Shown here: piece by piece, positions 52,149 through 58,701 of the stretch
Layout: each line of letters opens with the position of its first letter
Numbering within the stretch: the stretch's first letter is position 1
Source: Methylocystis sp.
GTDB lineage: Bacteria > Pseudomonadota > Alphaproteobacteria > Rhizobiales > Beijerinckiaceae
Reading direction: 5' to 3'
DNA length: 64,000 bases
Assembly: GCA_002929055.1 (NCBI GenBank)
Contig: PERY01000003.1
Span: 124,001-188,000 of the forward strand
Made by a program: the position numbers and the translations under genes
The notes under the pieces: generated by a model
The model's database searches: none
What the model was told of the DNA's origin: nothing
What the model saw: the letters and a program-made list of their open reading frames with translations, nothing else

Positions 52149-52314
52149 CTTTAGCTCCCGTAATCTCGGGCCCTGCATCGAGGCGAGCCCATGAACGCAA
52201 GGATGGCGCGGCGCGCCTGAACGGAAGGTGGCCACGGCGTTCAGCCTGCAGTCAGCTTTTGCGTGGCCGCGCGATTGCTTCTATTGTTGGAACGGTCCCT
52301 TCAGAGAGACGGAT

Positions 52315-52971
52315 TTGGACGCGCAAAAAACGATACGCCTCATGATCGCCGAGGATCAGACCGTGATCCGCAAGGCGCTCGTCGCGCTGCTGGCGCTGGA
52401 GGAGGACATCGACGTCGTCGCGACCGCCGCGGACGGAGAACAGGCCGTGAGCGTGGCCTGCGCCTATGCTCCCGACGTCATCCTCATGGACGCGAAAATG
52501 CCACGTATGGACGGCGTTGCGGCGATGCGTGCGATCCTCCAGAAAAGCCCCGACATCCGCATCGTGATGCTCACGACCTTCGATACCGACGACCTAGTCT
52601 TCGAGGCCATCTCGGCTGGCGCTCACGGCTATCTGCTCAAAGACGCCGAAGAGAGCGAAATTCTTGCCGCCATACGCTCGGCCGCTCGGGGCGAACCGCG
52701 CCTTTCTCCGACGATCGCGACCAAAATCCTCGCTGAGTTCCGGCGCGTGAAGGCGCCCAGGCGCCCCTCTCCCGCCAGGGAGGAAGAGCCTTTGACCGAG
52801 CGCGAGAATGAAGTGCTGCGCCTCGTATCGGCAGGCAAGAACAACCGCGACATCGCTCGCGAGATGGGGCTCGCCGAAGGCACGGTGAAGAATCACGTCT
52901 CCACCATTCTCGCAAAGCTTCATCTGAGAAGTCGGACCGAGCTTGCGATCCGCGCGCTCCTGGATCGCTGA
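52315..52971 (+). CDS. NarL-family response regulator (orphan)
   Basis: A 218-residue response regulator. Its receiver domain has the acidic pair in IAEDQT, phosphoacceptor Asp59 in [12 protein letters not shown] and Lys in GYLLKDAEE. The C-terminal LuxR helix-turn-helix has [22 protein letters not shown] and [14 protein letters not shown]. The start is uncertain. TTG at 52315 gives a normal short N-terminus, whereas the GTG at 52228 would add 29 atypical residues. No histidine kinase gene is adjacent. It is convergent with the GTPase operon. Confidence 0.85.
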
Positions 52972-53466
52972 TCAGCGGCTGCGACGCAGGATCGCGTGGC
53001 CGAGCGCAAGAAACATCTCGGCGACCCCCTGCCCGGTCTTGGCGCTTGTATAGAGAATCTCATGCGGCGCGCCCGCGCCATTGTCTGGCTGCGGCGAAAG
53101 ATCGACCTTGTTGACGATGGCGACGACCGGACGGCCGGGAAGGCGCTCGTCGAACTGCGCAACCAGCGCAGCCATCTTCACCAGCGTCGCCGGGCGCGTG
53201 GCGTCGCCCACCACGATCGCCGCCGAAGCGCCCAGAAGATAAACCGTTTCGAAGATCCGGGCGCCGAAGTCCCCGTCCGTATCCCACAGGACGAAGCGCA
53301 GCTTCTCATGGTTCGCAGCCGCGCCGAGGTCGACGTCATGGGTCAGCACGTCGACGCCGATCGTCGTCTTGTACTCGCTGTCGAAGCGATCGAAGACGAA
53401 GCGGCGGGCGAGCGACGACTTGCCGACGCCAATGTCTCCAAGCAGCATGACCTTCGCGGAAATCAT
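52972..53466 (-). CDS. Rab/Ras-like small GTPase
   Basis: A 164-residue small GTPase that closely resembles eukaryotic Rab proteins: G1 GDIGVGKSS (10-18), switch I with TTIGVD (34-39), G3 WDTDGD (61-66), G4 NKVD (119-122) and G5 TSAK (140-143). The position of the catalytic Gln of Rab WDTAGQ is occupied by Asp66, so hydrolysis may be slow or depend on a partner. There is no C-terminal lipidation Cys. It overlaps the OmpA-domain membrane protein gene in ATGA, so it probably acts on that protein's cytoplasmic part. It is the last gene of the operon. Confidence 0.9.
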   Translation of the reverse strand: MISAKVMLLGDIGVGKSSLARRFVFDRFDSEYKTTIGVDVLTHDVDLGAAANHEKLRFVLWDTDGDFGARIFETVYLLGASAAIVVGDATRPATLVKMAALVAQFDERLPGRPVVAIVNKVDLSPQPDNGAGAPHEILYTSAKTGQGVAEMFLALGHAILRRSR

Positions 53467-55127
53467 CGCACCTCGAACTCCCCCGCATAGGGCACCTCGA
53501 AGGAGACGCGGCGGCTGCGGATCGTATCGAGAGTCGAATCCGCAATGGGGTTGAGCGTCGAGCGCGAGACGAGGGACAACCGGTTTCGCGGCACGCCGCG
53601 CTCGACAAGCATGCCGACGATCTTGTCGGCGCGCTTGCGGGACGCAGAGCGGCTCGAGACCGTCGCGCCGATGTCGTCGGCGTAGCCGACGACGCGCAAG
53701 CCGCTGTCGCTGGCCTTCACCAGCGCGGCGAGTTCGTCGAGGCCGGCGGAGGCGGCCGCGGGGTTCAGGAGGATGTCGGAGTCAGAAAAGAACACGGCGA
53801 AACCGTCTACGAAGCGCCGCAGCCTGGCGGAAGGCGCCTCCTCCAGCGCAGAGAGCCTTTCGATCGTCCCGCGCGCGTCCTTCAGTTCGCTGCGCAGCGT
53901 TTCGATCTGCGCCTGCGCCTCCTGCAGGGTCGCAGCGGCGCGCGTCTCTCCGGCGCGCAGATCCTGCGTCTGGGCCGCGAGCGCGACGATCGAGATGTCG
54001 CGATCCACCGTGTATGGCTCCGAAGCGCTCGCGATCGCTTCCAGAACCGCCAGCGGCTCGGCCTCATTAGCGGCAAGGCCGCGCAGGACCACGCGGCCAT
54101 TCGCGTGGTCGACTTCGAGACGCAGGGGATATTGCATGAGCGCCGGATGACCGGACATGGCGGTCGTGTAGGCGCCTTTGATCCGCCACTCGCGAACTGC
54201 GTGCAGCACCGGGTTCCATGAGAACCAGATGGCGAGCCCCGCCAGCGCCGCGCCGAGGATCATCACCGGCGTCTTGCTTTTCTGCTTGGCGGGCTCGGCC
54301 AGCGCAGGGTCGAGAAGTTGGCCTATCGCATCGGGCGTGCAGGCGGCTTCGTCGCCCTCGTGCAGTTCCACGATCTTCAGGAAGGCTTCGTCGAGCCGGC
54401 GTTCGCGCTGCCGCGAAAGATCGCCGCCGAATTCGCCAGCGACGATCACCTGTGGCGAGGCGCGAAGGAAAACCTTGCCCGAGCCGATGTCCAGCATGCG
54501 CAACTCGCCGCCCTTGTCGGCGTAGACGTTCGTCGCGAACTCGGTGATCGCGGCGATCATGCCGCTCTCGAGATCCGCGTTCTCCTTGTCCGCGGCCTGC
54601 TCCTCGATCTTCTCCTTCCCGGGCCAGACGGCGAGGAGACGGCCGCTGCCGCGCTCCAGCAACAGCGCGCGTTTCAGATTGCCGGCCTCTGCTTCCGCGA
54701 GCGCGACTTCAGCCAGCGTCCGCCCGGTCGCCATCGCGCGCATGCGCAGGCGCCAGGAGTTCGCGGACATCATCGCATCGATGCGGGCGTTGAGGCTCTC
54801 GACGAGATCGCGGAAGGCGCCGGCGACCGCCGCAGTGACGAGACGGCCCATGATCGGATACAGCGCTTCGATCAGCATCTCTTTCGAGTTCTTGATCTCG
54901 GAGCGAATGATCGACACGACGGAGGGCGCCAGCGCGCCGGTCAACTCCCTGGGGCGCGTCTCCTCCGCACGCTTGAGCGCGCCGACAAGCGCGTCGCCGT
55001 CGCTGACGCGCGCGTCGATCTTTTCGACACGGTCGGCCGTCTCGTCGAGTTTGCGGGTCGTGTCGCCGAGCAGCAGCGACTTGATTTTCTCGAAGGCTTC
55101 CGCGCCCCCCGCGGGCAGCTCAGACAT
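53463..55127 (-). CDS. Membrane protein: roadblock/longin-like domain, TM helix and OmpA-like periplasmic domain
   Basis: A 554-residue protein. Residues 10-130 are helical. Residues about 150-255 (LKRALLLERGSGRLLAVWPG, ITEFATNVYADKGGELRMLD, VIVAGEFGGDLSRQRERRLD) look like a roadblock/longin-type domain, the usual partner of small GTPases. A membrane helix (287-306), a BON-like stretch (316-370), a coiled coil (395-430) and an OmpA C-terminal-like domain (440-545) follow; the last has the peptidoglycan-binding pattern RSASRKRADKIVGMLVERGV. Topology should be cytoplasm to periplasm. The ATG at 55127 overlaps the upstream gene by 8 bp. The domain names are my reading, not database hits. Confidence 0.8.
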   Translation of the reverse strand: MSELPAGGAEAFEKIKSLLLGDTTRKLDETADRVEKIDARVSDGDALVGALKRAEETRPRELTGALAPSVVSIIRSEIKNSKEMLIEALYPIMGRLVTAAVAGAFRDLVESLNARIDAMMSANSWRLRMRAMATGRTLAEVALAEAEAGNLKRALLLERGSGRLLAVWPGKEKIEEQAADKENADLESGMIAAITEFATNVYADKGGELRMLDIGSGKVFLRASPQVIVAGEFGGDLSRQRERRLDEAFLKIVELHEGDEAACTPDAIGQLLDPALAEPAKQKSKTPVMILGAALAGLAIWFSWNPVLHAVREWRIKGAYTTAMSGHPALMQYPLRLEVDHANGRVVLRGLAANEAEPLAVLEAIASASEPYTVDRDISIVALAAQTQDLRAGETRAAATLQEAQAQIETLRSELKDARGTIERLSALEEAPSARLRRFVDGFAVFFSDSDILLNPAAASAGLDELAALVKASDSGLRVVGYADDIGATVSSRSASRKRADKIVGMLVERGVPRNRLSLVSRSTLNPIADSTLDTIRSRRVSFEVPYAGEFEVR

Positions 55128-55437
55128 CGCGCTTCGCACCAATCTTCTTTATGGCCGCGCCGAGTTCGCCGATGGCGTCGCCGATCGCCTCGAGCGACGC
55201 GGCCTGACTCTTTTGTGATTCCAGAGCGACTTCCACGAGGCGGCTCTCGAGCGCCTCAAATCGCGCGAGAAACTCCTTGCGCATCTCGTCCACCTTCGCG
55301 TCGACCGCGTTAAGTTGGCCGTCTGTCTCGCGTTTTGTGGCGCCGAAGAGCAGTTCCCGCATCTGTTCCATAGGATCGAACAGCATAGGGATCGTTGGAA
55401 TATCCACTTTCTGTTTTTCGTCCTGGCCGCCGCTCAT
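55120..55437 (-). CDS. Small coiled-coil protein heading the GTPase operon
   Basis: A 105-residue cytoplasmic protein. After a short polar N-terminus it has a conserved-looking PTIPMLFDPMEQMRELLFGA, then a long helical stretch (about 38-100) predicted as a coiled coil (VDAKVDEMRKEFLARFEALE). The ATG at 55437 is chosen because GGGGAG lies five bases upstream; a GTG at 55470 is possible. Its coiled-coil character resembles the N-terminal helical part of the following protein, with which it could interact. No family is recognised. Confidence 0.7.
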   Translation of the reverse strand: MSGGQDEKQKVDIPTIPMLFDPMEQMRELLFGATKRETDGQLNAVDAKVDEMRKEFLARFEALESRLVEVALESQKSQAASLEAIGDAIGELGAAIKKIGAKRDV

Positions 55438-56225: not shown

Positions 56226-57746
56226 TCAGGGCAGATCCTTCCGATTGAGCTTGCCGTTCGCGTTGCGCGGCAGCGACTCCAGAAACACGATTGACCGCGG
56301 CCGCTTGTACGCTGCGAGATGCTCGTGGCAATGCGCGAGGATCGCCGCCTCGTCATGCGCCGCGCCGTCGCGCATCACCACATAGGCCTTGATGATCGTC
56401 GCGTCCGCGTCGCGTCCGGGTCGCTCCGCCGCGGCCGCCTCGGCGACCTGGTCGAAGGCGAGAAGACATTTCTCCACCTCGGCGGGAGAAACCCGAAAGC
56501 CGCCTGCGTTCATCACCTCGTCGGCGCGGCCGTGGTGATGCATGTAGCCTTCGGCGTCGAAGGCGACGAGATCGCCCGAGACGAACCAGTCGCCGCGAAA
56601 GGCCTCGCGCTCTTCGTCCGGCCGGTTCCAGTAGCCGAGCATCAGACCGGGGTCGTCGCGCCTCACCGCCAGCACGCCGGTCTCGCCCGGCGGGAGCGGC
56701 GTCTCGCCGCCCTCCTGCGGCAGGGCGGCGACCACCCTGCCCGGCTGCGGACGGCCGGGGGAGCCCGGATGCACCGGCGTCGTCGGGCCGCTGGAAATGA
56801 AGGTAGAGCATTCGCTCATCCCAAAGGCCTCGAAAATGTCCTTGCCGGTGCGCGCCCGCCATTCCTCGAGGAGGCTCGGCGCAAGCGCGGCGCCCGCCGA
56901 AAGCCCGTGGCGCAGGCTGGAGAGATCCGCCGTCTCCGGCGTGGCGTATTTGAGCATCTGCCGGTAGACGCCTGGCACGGCGGCGAAGACCGTGGCGCGG
57001 TGTTCCAGAATGAGACGCAGCCAGACATTGGGGTCGGGATGGCCGTTGTAAAGCACGGCCGAACCGCCCGCCGAGAGCGGATCGACGACGCCGACGCCGA
57101 GCGTATAGGTCCAGTTGATCGCGCCCGCGTGCAGCATCACGTCGCCGGGGCCGAGCCCGGTCCAATGCGCGCGCATCGGCCTGCGTCCCCAGGCGGCGCG
57201 ATGGGCGTGGAGCACGCCCTTCGGACGGCTCGTGGTGCCGGAGGTGTAGACGAGATAGGCCGGATCATCAGCGGCCGTGTCGGCGTATTCCGCGATCGGC
57301 GCGGCCTGCGCGAGGCGCGCCAGATCGGCGCCCCGCAGGACGATGGCGCCGCTCTCATGCGCCTCGCTCTCGAAGGCGGCGCCGAGCGCCAGCGCAGACG
57401 CGCCGCAGTCCTTAAGCAGAAAATCCGCTTCCTCGAAGGTGAGCTGCGAGGAGGCGAGCAGCGGCACATAGCCTGCCGCGATCGCCGCGAAATAGCTCAG
57501 CGCCGCATTGGCTTCATTGCCCATGCGGATCATCACCCGAGCGCCCGGCGCGAGTGAAAGCCCGCGCAACCCCGCCGCGAGGCGGCGCACGTCGAGATCG
57601 AGTTGCGCATGCGTCCAGCGCTGCGCGCCGGCGTCGCCGACGATTGTGATGGCCGTGACGTCCGGGCGCACGCGGGCGTTCTCCGCGAGGCAATAGCGGG
57701 CCAGATTGAAGCGGACGGGGACGGGTTCGCGGGCGCTTTCGTTCAT
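56226..57746 (-). CDS. AMP-forming acyl-CoA / benzoate-CoA ligase family protein
   Basis: A 506-residue ANL-superfamily adenylating enzyme that activates a carboxylic acid with ATP and CoA. It has the P-loop YTSGTTSRPKGVLHAH, AGAINWTYTLG typical of the benzoate-CoA ligase/acetyl-CoA synthetase-like group, FEAFGMSECSTF, GDWFVSGDLVAFD, the hinge GRADEVMNAGGFRVSPAEVE, and the catalytic Lys in NANGKLNRKDL. Substrate is not evident; benzoate, medium-chain or short acids are possible. The ATG at 57746 follows the in-frame upstream extension that is not coding. Only one ligase stands here, with no beta-oxidation genes beside it. Confidence 0.85.
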   Translation of the reverse strand: MNESAREPVPVRFNLARYCLAENARVRPDVTAITIVGDAGAQRWTHAQLDLDVRRLAAGLRGLSLAPGARVMIRMGNEANAALSYFAAIAAGYVPLLASSQLTFEEADFLLKDCGASALALGAAFESEAHESGAIVLRGADLARLAQAAPIAEYADTAADDPAYLVYTSGTTSRPKGVLHAHRAAWGRRPMRAHWTGLGPGDVMLHAGAINWTYTLGVGVVDPLSAGGSAVLYNGHPDPNVWLRLILEHRATVFAAVPGVYRQMLKYATPETADLSSLRHGLSAGAALAPSLLEEWRARTGKDIFEAFGMSECSTFISSGPTTPVHPGSPGRPQPGRVVAALPQEGGETPLPPGETGVLAVRRDDPGLMLGYWNRPDEEREAFRGDWFVSGDLVAFDAEGYMHHHGRADEVMNAGGFRVSPAEVEKCLLAFDQVAEAAAAERPGRDADATIIKAYVVMRDGAAHDEAAILAHCHEHLAAYKRPRSIVFLESLPRNANGKLNRKDLP

Positions 57747-57903
57747 GGCGCGCTTTCTCGCACCGCCCGCTCGGGGAGAGCAAGAGGGCGCGGGGAGAAC
57801 CTGCGTTAACGCTTCGTCAACCACGCTCGCGAGCCGCGCTTTCATCCTTAACAGGATGCGCCATGCTTCCCCGCAGATTCGATTCAAATGTCGGAGTTGC
57901 GGC

Positions 57904-58701
57904 GTGGCGAAGAAGAAATCCCAATCCTCGAGAGGCGCTTCCGCTTCCTCGGGCAAATCGGCGGGGCTGGTGATCGCCGTCGGGCTCGCCTGCGCGGGCG
58001 GCGGCTATTTCGCCGGCAAGAACAGCGAGGCGATCGAGCCGAAGTTTACGGCGCTCTTCTCCAGAGAGAAATCGGACTCCGCCCCGGCCAAGCCTGCGGC
58101 TGAGGCCAGGCATGCAGATGCGCCGACCCATGCCGTGAAGCCCGCCGACAAGTTCGAACTTGCGCGCATCCTGAAGGGCGGCGACTCCAGAAGCGCCGAG
58201 AAAAGCTCTGAACCGAAAGCGGCCGCGGACATCCCCATGCCGCCCGCCAAGCCGGAGACTGCGGCGGCCGAGGCCCCAAAGGCGGAACCTGTCGCTGCAA
58301 GACCCGTCGTTTCCGAGCAACCGGCGCCTCTTGCCTTTGCGCTTGTCGACCGGGACATCGCCGAGAGCGCTGAAGATGGCGAGCGGGTCACTCTCTCCCT
58401 GAATTTCGAGAACCTCGCCGGCAAGCCGATCCGCGCCTTTGAAGGCGTCGTGAAATTCACCGACCCGCAGGACAACGCAATCTACAGCTCGAAGATTTCG
58501 GTGAGTGCGTTGATCTCGGAGAATGGGACGCTGCATTGGGAGCAGCACGTCGACGCGAAAAGGCTCGACGGAAAGGGCAAGCGGCTGGTTTCGGAGGACA
58601 AGGCGAATCTGCGCGCGGTTTTCCTGCTGAAGAGAATCTTCTTCGTCGACGGCAGCGTGCAGAGATACGCGATGCCGGCGAAGGCCGCGCAGGCGGGGTG
58701 A
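57904..58701 (+). CDS. Membrane-anchored protein with FxLYD-like periplasmic domain, unknown
   Basis: A 265-residue protein with a basic N-terminus (VAKKKSQSSRG), one membrane helix (about residues 23-42), a long Ala/Pro/Glu-rich periplasmic linker (about 60-145) and a C-terminal beta-domain (VTLSLNFENLAGKPIRAFEG, YSSKISVSALISENGTLHWE) resembling FxLYD-type domains. The start is set at GTG 57904 because GGAG lies eight bases upstream; an ATG at 57856 would also be in frame. Function unknown. Its layout echoes the membrane protein at 46389. Confidence 0.65.
   Translation: MAKKKSQSSRGASASSGKSAGLVIAVGLACAGGGYFAGKNSEAIEPKFTALFSREKSDSAPAKPAAEARHADAPTHAVKPADKFELARILKGGDSRSAEKSSEPKAAADIPMPPAKPETAAAEAPKAEPVAARPVVSEQPAPLAFALVDRDIAESAEDGERVTLSLNFENLAGKPIRAFEGVVKFTDPQDNAIYSSKISVSALISENGTLHWEQHVDAKRLDGKGKRLVSEDKANLRAVFLLKRIFFVDGSVQRYAMPAKAAQAG

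Follow-up and report, generated by a model that had tools for sequence, protein, structure and literature searches.

An operon in Methylocystis sp. resembling the Group 1 Rup neighbourhood, with a Rab-like GTPase, a predicted longin-like domain and an unlinked candidate kinase

The DNA analyzed here, referred to as the window, is a 64,000-nucleotide stretch of Methylocystis sp. (contig PERY01000003.1, positions 124,001 to 188,000). Positions 52972-55437 of its minus strand hold three overlapping genes, encoding a 105-aa (amino acid) coiled-coil protein, a 554-aa membrane protein and a 164-aa GTPase. The open reading frame (ORF) coordinates confirm the overlaps on which the original prediction, made from the sequence alone, had based a three-gene operon: 8 bp between the 105-aa and 554-aa genes, and 4 bp between the 554-aa and GTPase genes. 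The features of the locus are as follows.

55120..55437, minus strand: coiled-coil protein, 105 aa, first gene of the operon (ORF)
53463..55127, minus strand: 554-aa protein with helical N-terminus, predicted longin-like domain, transmembrane (TM) helix, BON-like domain, coiled coil and OmpA domain (ORF, Pfam, predicted structure)
54726..55106, minus strand: helical cytoplasmic region of the 554-aa protein, residues 8-134, with a conserved ALYP..G motif at 88-94 (predicted helices, conserved columns)
54291..54680, minus strand: predicted longin-like domain, residues 150-279 (predicted elements and PDB structure matches; weak sequence support)
54207..54269, minus strand: probable TM helix, about residues 287-307 (read by eye; within predicted helix 286-325)
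53988..54146, minus strand: BON-like periplasmic domain, residues about 328-380 (weak Pfam BON match)
53514..53786, minus strand: OmpA peptidoglycan-binding domain, residues 448-538 (Pfam; fold matches to Pal, YfiB and MotB entries)
52972..53466, minus strand: Rab/Ras-like GTPase, 164 aa, with a G3 motif lacking the catalytic Gln (Pfam, solved relatives, locus counts)
52228..52971, plus strand: gene for a LuxR-type response regulator, running convergently to that of the GTPase; probable output (Pfam Response_reg 1.5e-27, GerE 6.1e-19)

The three genes stay together across genomes. A 12-row alignment picked out 239 relatives in genome contigs; the counts below use the 80 loci retained from these, part of which also served to build the coiled-coil and other locus profiles. 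A coiled-coil match lies beside or overlaps the OmpA gene in 79/80 loci, or in 67/80 under a stricter distance rule, the shortfall probably being due to overlapping or over-extended ORF starts. Under the strict rule the GTPase gene directly follows the OmpA gene in 71 of 74 loci whose flanks are long enough. Of the three exceptions, L035 and L061 contain a GTPase match within an ORF that is over-extended, and only L074 is without one. The association exceeds chance, and the gene order indeed recurs in other genomes, where the original prediction had proposed to look for it.

The gene set extends beyond the alphaproteobacteria. With a Granulosicoccaceae genome as centre, the N-terminal part of the OmpA protein was found in 24/274 genomes of its class, Gammaproteobacteria, that genome included, and the 15 regions fetched from those 24 have an adjoining GTPase in 14 cases and a separate coiled-coil match in 13. 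Four plasmid records were found, and the three examined, from Nostoc, Mesorhizobium and Rhizobium, all carry the same gene set; the N-terminal profile picks up the OmpA protein from Nostoc at 8.8e-41. Because only 6 of 289 genomes evenly drawn from the class of Methylocystis matched at 1e-10 with the window protein alone as query, the distribution is patchy. Within the genus, the operon is present in 5/25 genomes.

The GTPase is Rab-like, as originally proposed: it matches Pfam Ras at 1.7e-21 and Roc at 2.3e-21, and its closest relatives of solved structure are Rab proteins. Its G3 motif reads WDTDGD, with no Gln after DxxG, and this Gln is absent from all 74 GTPases with a readable G3 motif among the 80 loci. 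In a tree of 47 rows, thinned from 71 and built without the Rup sequences of PMC4316618 itself, the window GTPase falls within an alphaproteobacterial set (12 rows, 98/94), and the GTPase of the Nostoc four-gene locus joins 24 alphaproteobacterial and two gammaproteobacterial proteins at 99/98. Seven MglA-like proteins, drawn from roadblock loci and thus labelled by neighbourhood, split off at 100/100, and the window GTPase does not group with them. Among the named GTPases of the tree, that of Methylocystis sp. KS32 is nearest (66% identity).

In the 554-aa protein, the C-terminal OmpA-like domain was correctly foreseen (Pfam OmpA, 2e-9). The BON match is weak in the window protein (0.048) and above its cut-off in the Nostoc relative, and the helices of residues 8-134 are predicted at a pLDDT (predicted local distance difference test) of just 50-87 by blocks. 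The coiled-coil protein has no Pfam family above its cut-off. It has an LLFG-plus-coil motif in common with the OmpA protein's N-terminal part (hhalign Prob 90, score 31.3; the top score in 60 shuffles of seven-column blocks was 27.7).

Structure prediction, the check proposed at the outset for residues 150-255, gave a longin-like fold over residues 150-279, with the element order β1-β2-α1-β3-β4-β5-α2-α3. This fold is known as a GTPase platform; structural alignment with longin proteins gives 8% identity. Of the roadblock/longin-like domain originally proposed, the longin-like part agrees with the predicted structure. For the Robl_LC7 family, PF03259 had no match above cut-off in the window protein or in its own genome, and in relatives it appeared in 1/30 full proteins (at 0.059) and 1/46 domain segments (at 0.12). 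No longin family model of Pfam exceeded its cut-off in the window protein either. Fuz_longin_1 matched one of 30 relatives at 0.0031 when full proteins were scanned, a match that may lie anywhere along the protein.

Sequence comparisons lend the longin assignment weak support. With 46 domain segments scanned on their own, Fuz_longin_1 gave no match. The best PDB match of the domain profile is a roadblock protein rather than a longin (0.087), and the profile of the whole N-terminal part finds only a ferritin in the PDB (0.41). Roadblock similarity is itself marginal: hhalign of the domain with 25 roadblock proteins gave Prob 8-10, and after removal of gap-rich columns the score was 15.8, with 60 shuffles reaching up to 16.6.

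Many alphaproteobacterial loci contain a fourth gene, a histidine kinase with a shared N-terminal domain, which is in the locus in 46 of 55 well-flanked cases. In the window, no kinase with this domain adjoins the operon. When 21 operon-linked N-terminal domains were made into a profile, it found one on another contig of the same genome (G000:C1, 466 aa, L122 5899-7299). This protein contains HisKA_3, HATPase_c and, at 148-251, a PAS domain; over its first 140 residues no Pfam family matches, and a PAS-like character there is read by eye only. Among the 25 genus genomes, the kinase domain occurs in exactly the five that carry the operon (Fisher 1.9e-5). Across 297 genomes of the order, the N-terminal part of the OmpA protein was found in 27 and the kinase domain in 18, all 18 among the 27 (Fisher 1.6e-22). 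The two matches lie at most about 5 kb apart in 15 of these 18 genomes; they are unlinked in G000 and G010, and in G040 the kinase is on another contig. The Fisher values are not true probabilities, since the genomes are related, candidates were limited and linked kinases were found partly by construction. The telling parts of the co-occurrence are the 270 operon-less genomes without the kinase domain and the unlinked copies in the genus.

HisKA_3 kinases commonly pair with LuxR-type response regulators. For this reason the LuxR-type regulator next to the operon is the probable cognate of the G000:C1 kinase. A close relative of the regulator is present in the fetched stretch of 9.5-11 kb in all four other operon-carrying genomes of the genus, with other ORFs intervening in two of them.

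The fourth gene is variable in kind. On the Mesorhizobium plasmid (L128 8499-9569) the kinase is replaced by a guanylate cyclase of the class III nucleotide cyclases (Pfam 5.1e-50), and the Rhizobium plasmid (L129 8499-9569) encodes a near-identical protein, Pfam having been run on the L128 protein only. In three gammaproteobacterial loci (L184, L186 and L193) the fourth gene looks, by eye and from its motif, like one for an HD-GYP protein. In many Hyphomicrobium-type loci (for example at L101 11754-12221) the gene after the kinase encodes a small receiver-like protein of about 155-235 aa, whose cluster (5) is found in 17 loci.

By sequence, the gene set is one already outlined in 2014. As described in the excerpts available of PMC4316618 (Wuichet and Sogaard-Andersen 2014), a Group 1 Rup neighbourhood consists of a rup GTPase, a coiled-coil protein, a "conserved domain of unknown function"-TM-OmpA protein and an output module, so the original statement, that no described system of exactly this make-up was known, does not stand. 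According to the same excerpts, no Rup member had been experimentally characterised, the G3 glutamine is missing, and one alphaproteobacterial Group 1 case is named, Mesorhizobium loti. The window shares with Group 1 a Ras/Rab-like GTPase without the G3 Gln, the adjoining coiled-coil and domain-TM-OmpA genes, and, in the unlinked kinase, a probable signalling output with its own N-terminal region. It differs in that this kinase is unlinked, the operon has a LuxR-type regulator as its neighbour and a longin-like fold is predicted for the "unknown" domain. A limited literature search, covering sources in part, found no prior description of a longin-like assignment for this domain, of an unlinked kinase or of the LLFG motif common to both proteins. 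The 2014 idea that the output enzyme donates the missing Gln is not supported for this genus by the kinase sequences: read by eye, its five kinases have D, E or G at the corresponding position, where Hyphomicrobium, Nostoc and two gammaproteobacterial kinases have Q.

Other systems are more distant. MglA-MglB and the actinobacterial conservons, as excerpted from PMC4316618, also combine a small GTPase with a roadblock/longin-class partner, and conservons add a histidine kinase; however, GTPases of the window type occupy a separate branch, and their partner is membrane-anchored with an OmpA domain and predicted to be longin-like rather than Robl_LC7. The longin-type Rab exchange factors TRAPP (Trs23/Bet5) and Mon1-Ccz1, described in the available part of PMC10933270, share a longin-like fold and a Rab-like GTPase, whereas the partner in the window is a bacterial, single-chain TM receptor with the low identity given above, and its exchange activity is only putative.

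Gene order, protein families, co-occurrence and the predicted fold come directly from the computation, and we infer from them, as a somewhat probable reading, a Group-1-Rup-type signalling module with an unlinked kinase that turns envelope state into transcription. The 554-aa protein would span the inner membrane, its BON and OmpA parts reaching into the periplasm and to the peptidoglycan to read the state of periplasm or wall. Its cytoplasmic longin-like domain would be the docking platform for the GTPase, probably as a nucleotide-exchange or GTPase-activating factor. The coiled-coil protein may co-assemble with the receptor through the shared N-terminal motif, so that longin-like domain and coiled coil would together hold the GTPase. 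The GTPase, without a catalytic Gln of its own, would then act on the N-terminal domain of the G000:C1 kinase, which may in turn phosphorylate the adjoining LuxR-type regulator. All physical contacts, the direction of signalling and the kinase-regulator pairing in this scheme are putative.

In the original prediction, GTP state may govern how the protein attaches to the cell wall or what force it puts on the wall. Such outward working, in which GTP state alters the grip or load of the OmpA protein on peptidoglycan and the kinase is a mere modulator, is compatible with the clear OmpA domain and with a coiled coil and long helices that could transmit force. Still, the usual fourth partner is a histidine kinase, a guanylate cyclase or (by eye) an HD-GYP protein, and because these enzymes make signals rather than force, the direction from envelope to output fits better and outward working seems quite improbable. 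It is also unlikely, if somewhat less so, that the longin resemblance is convergent and the domain a scaffold related to PAS and profilin, serving to dimerise the receptor without ever contacting the GTPase. The marginal sequence similarity to roadblock is in line with such a scaffold, as are partial readings of the literature in which longin, roadblock and profilin have a common core (PMC10933270) and longin is a PAS-like fold (PMC3521125).

That the unlinked kinase belongs to a parallel system, co-occurring only through common lineage, we consider very unlikely. In its favour, the counted genomes are related, and the five genus genomes may have one history. Further points detract from the kinase link: the domain was not found at E 1e-6 in 9 of the 27 order genomes (G110, G031, G810, G370, G388, G435, G480, G844 and G959), scoring covered just the best 8 or 13 first-look candidates of each genome, and operon-linked kinases were found partly by construction, 21 such kinases being the source of the profile. 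Against a parallel system stand the proximity of the two matches in most order genomes with both and the kinase domain within most well-flanked loci.

The receptors vary among loci. On one contig of genome G235, loci L023 and L027 carry two different OmpA-type receptors (885 and 557 aa) with matches about 2 kb apart, which suggests receptor duplication. The rhizobial plasmid receptors (L128 4924-7989 and L129 4923-7988; 1021 aa) have several near-identical periplasmic repeats, by eye, in the stretch from TM helix to OmpA domain. Upstream of the operon in the window lies an acyl-CoA-ligase-like gene (by eye, 56226-57956), whose cluster is also upstream in the Methylocystis loci L031 and L033.

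A longin-like domain in the partner of a Rab-like GTPase, in alphaproteobacteria, gammaproteobacteria and one cyanobacterium, would bear on the kinship of Rab/Ras with Rup and on views of longin origin. In the consulted portions of the literature, eukaryotic Rab, Ran, Ras and Rho are placed nearest the Group 1 Rup GTPases (PMC4316618), roadblock/longin proteins are thought to be archaeal in origin (PMC10933270), and eukaryotic longins are derived from prokaryotic roadblock domains (PMC3521125). Speculatively, and with considerable doubt, bacteria may have true longin domains that regulate, on a wall-anchored receptor, the GTPases closest to eukaryotic Rab/Ras; the Rab-longin pairing would then be older than eukaryotes or have been given to them, and in bacteria would act as a gate on histidine kinases and nucleotide second messengers. 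With a longin-like domain in the GTPase's partner, simple bacteria would offer a way to test how the Rab-longin pair arose. For a GTPase family called uncharacterised in the excerpted 2014 paper (PMC4316618), the domain would supply a candidate regulator, and the module would connect the cell wall to two-component and cyclic-nucleotide signalling.
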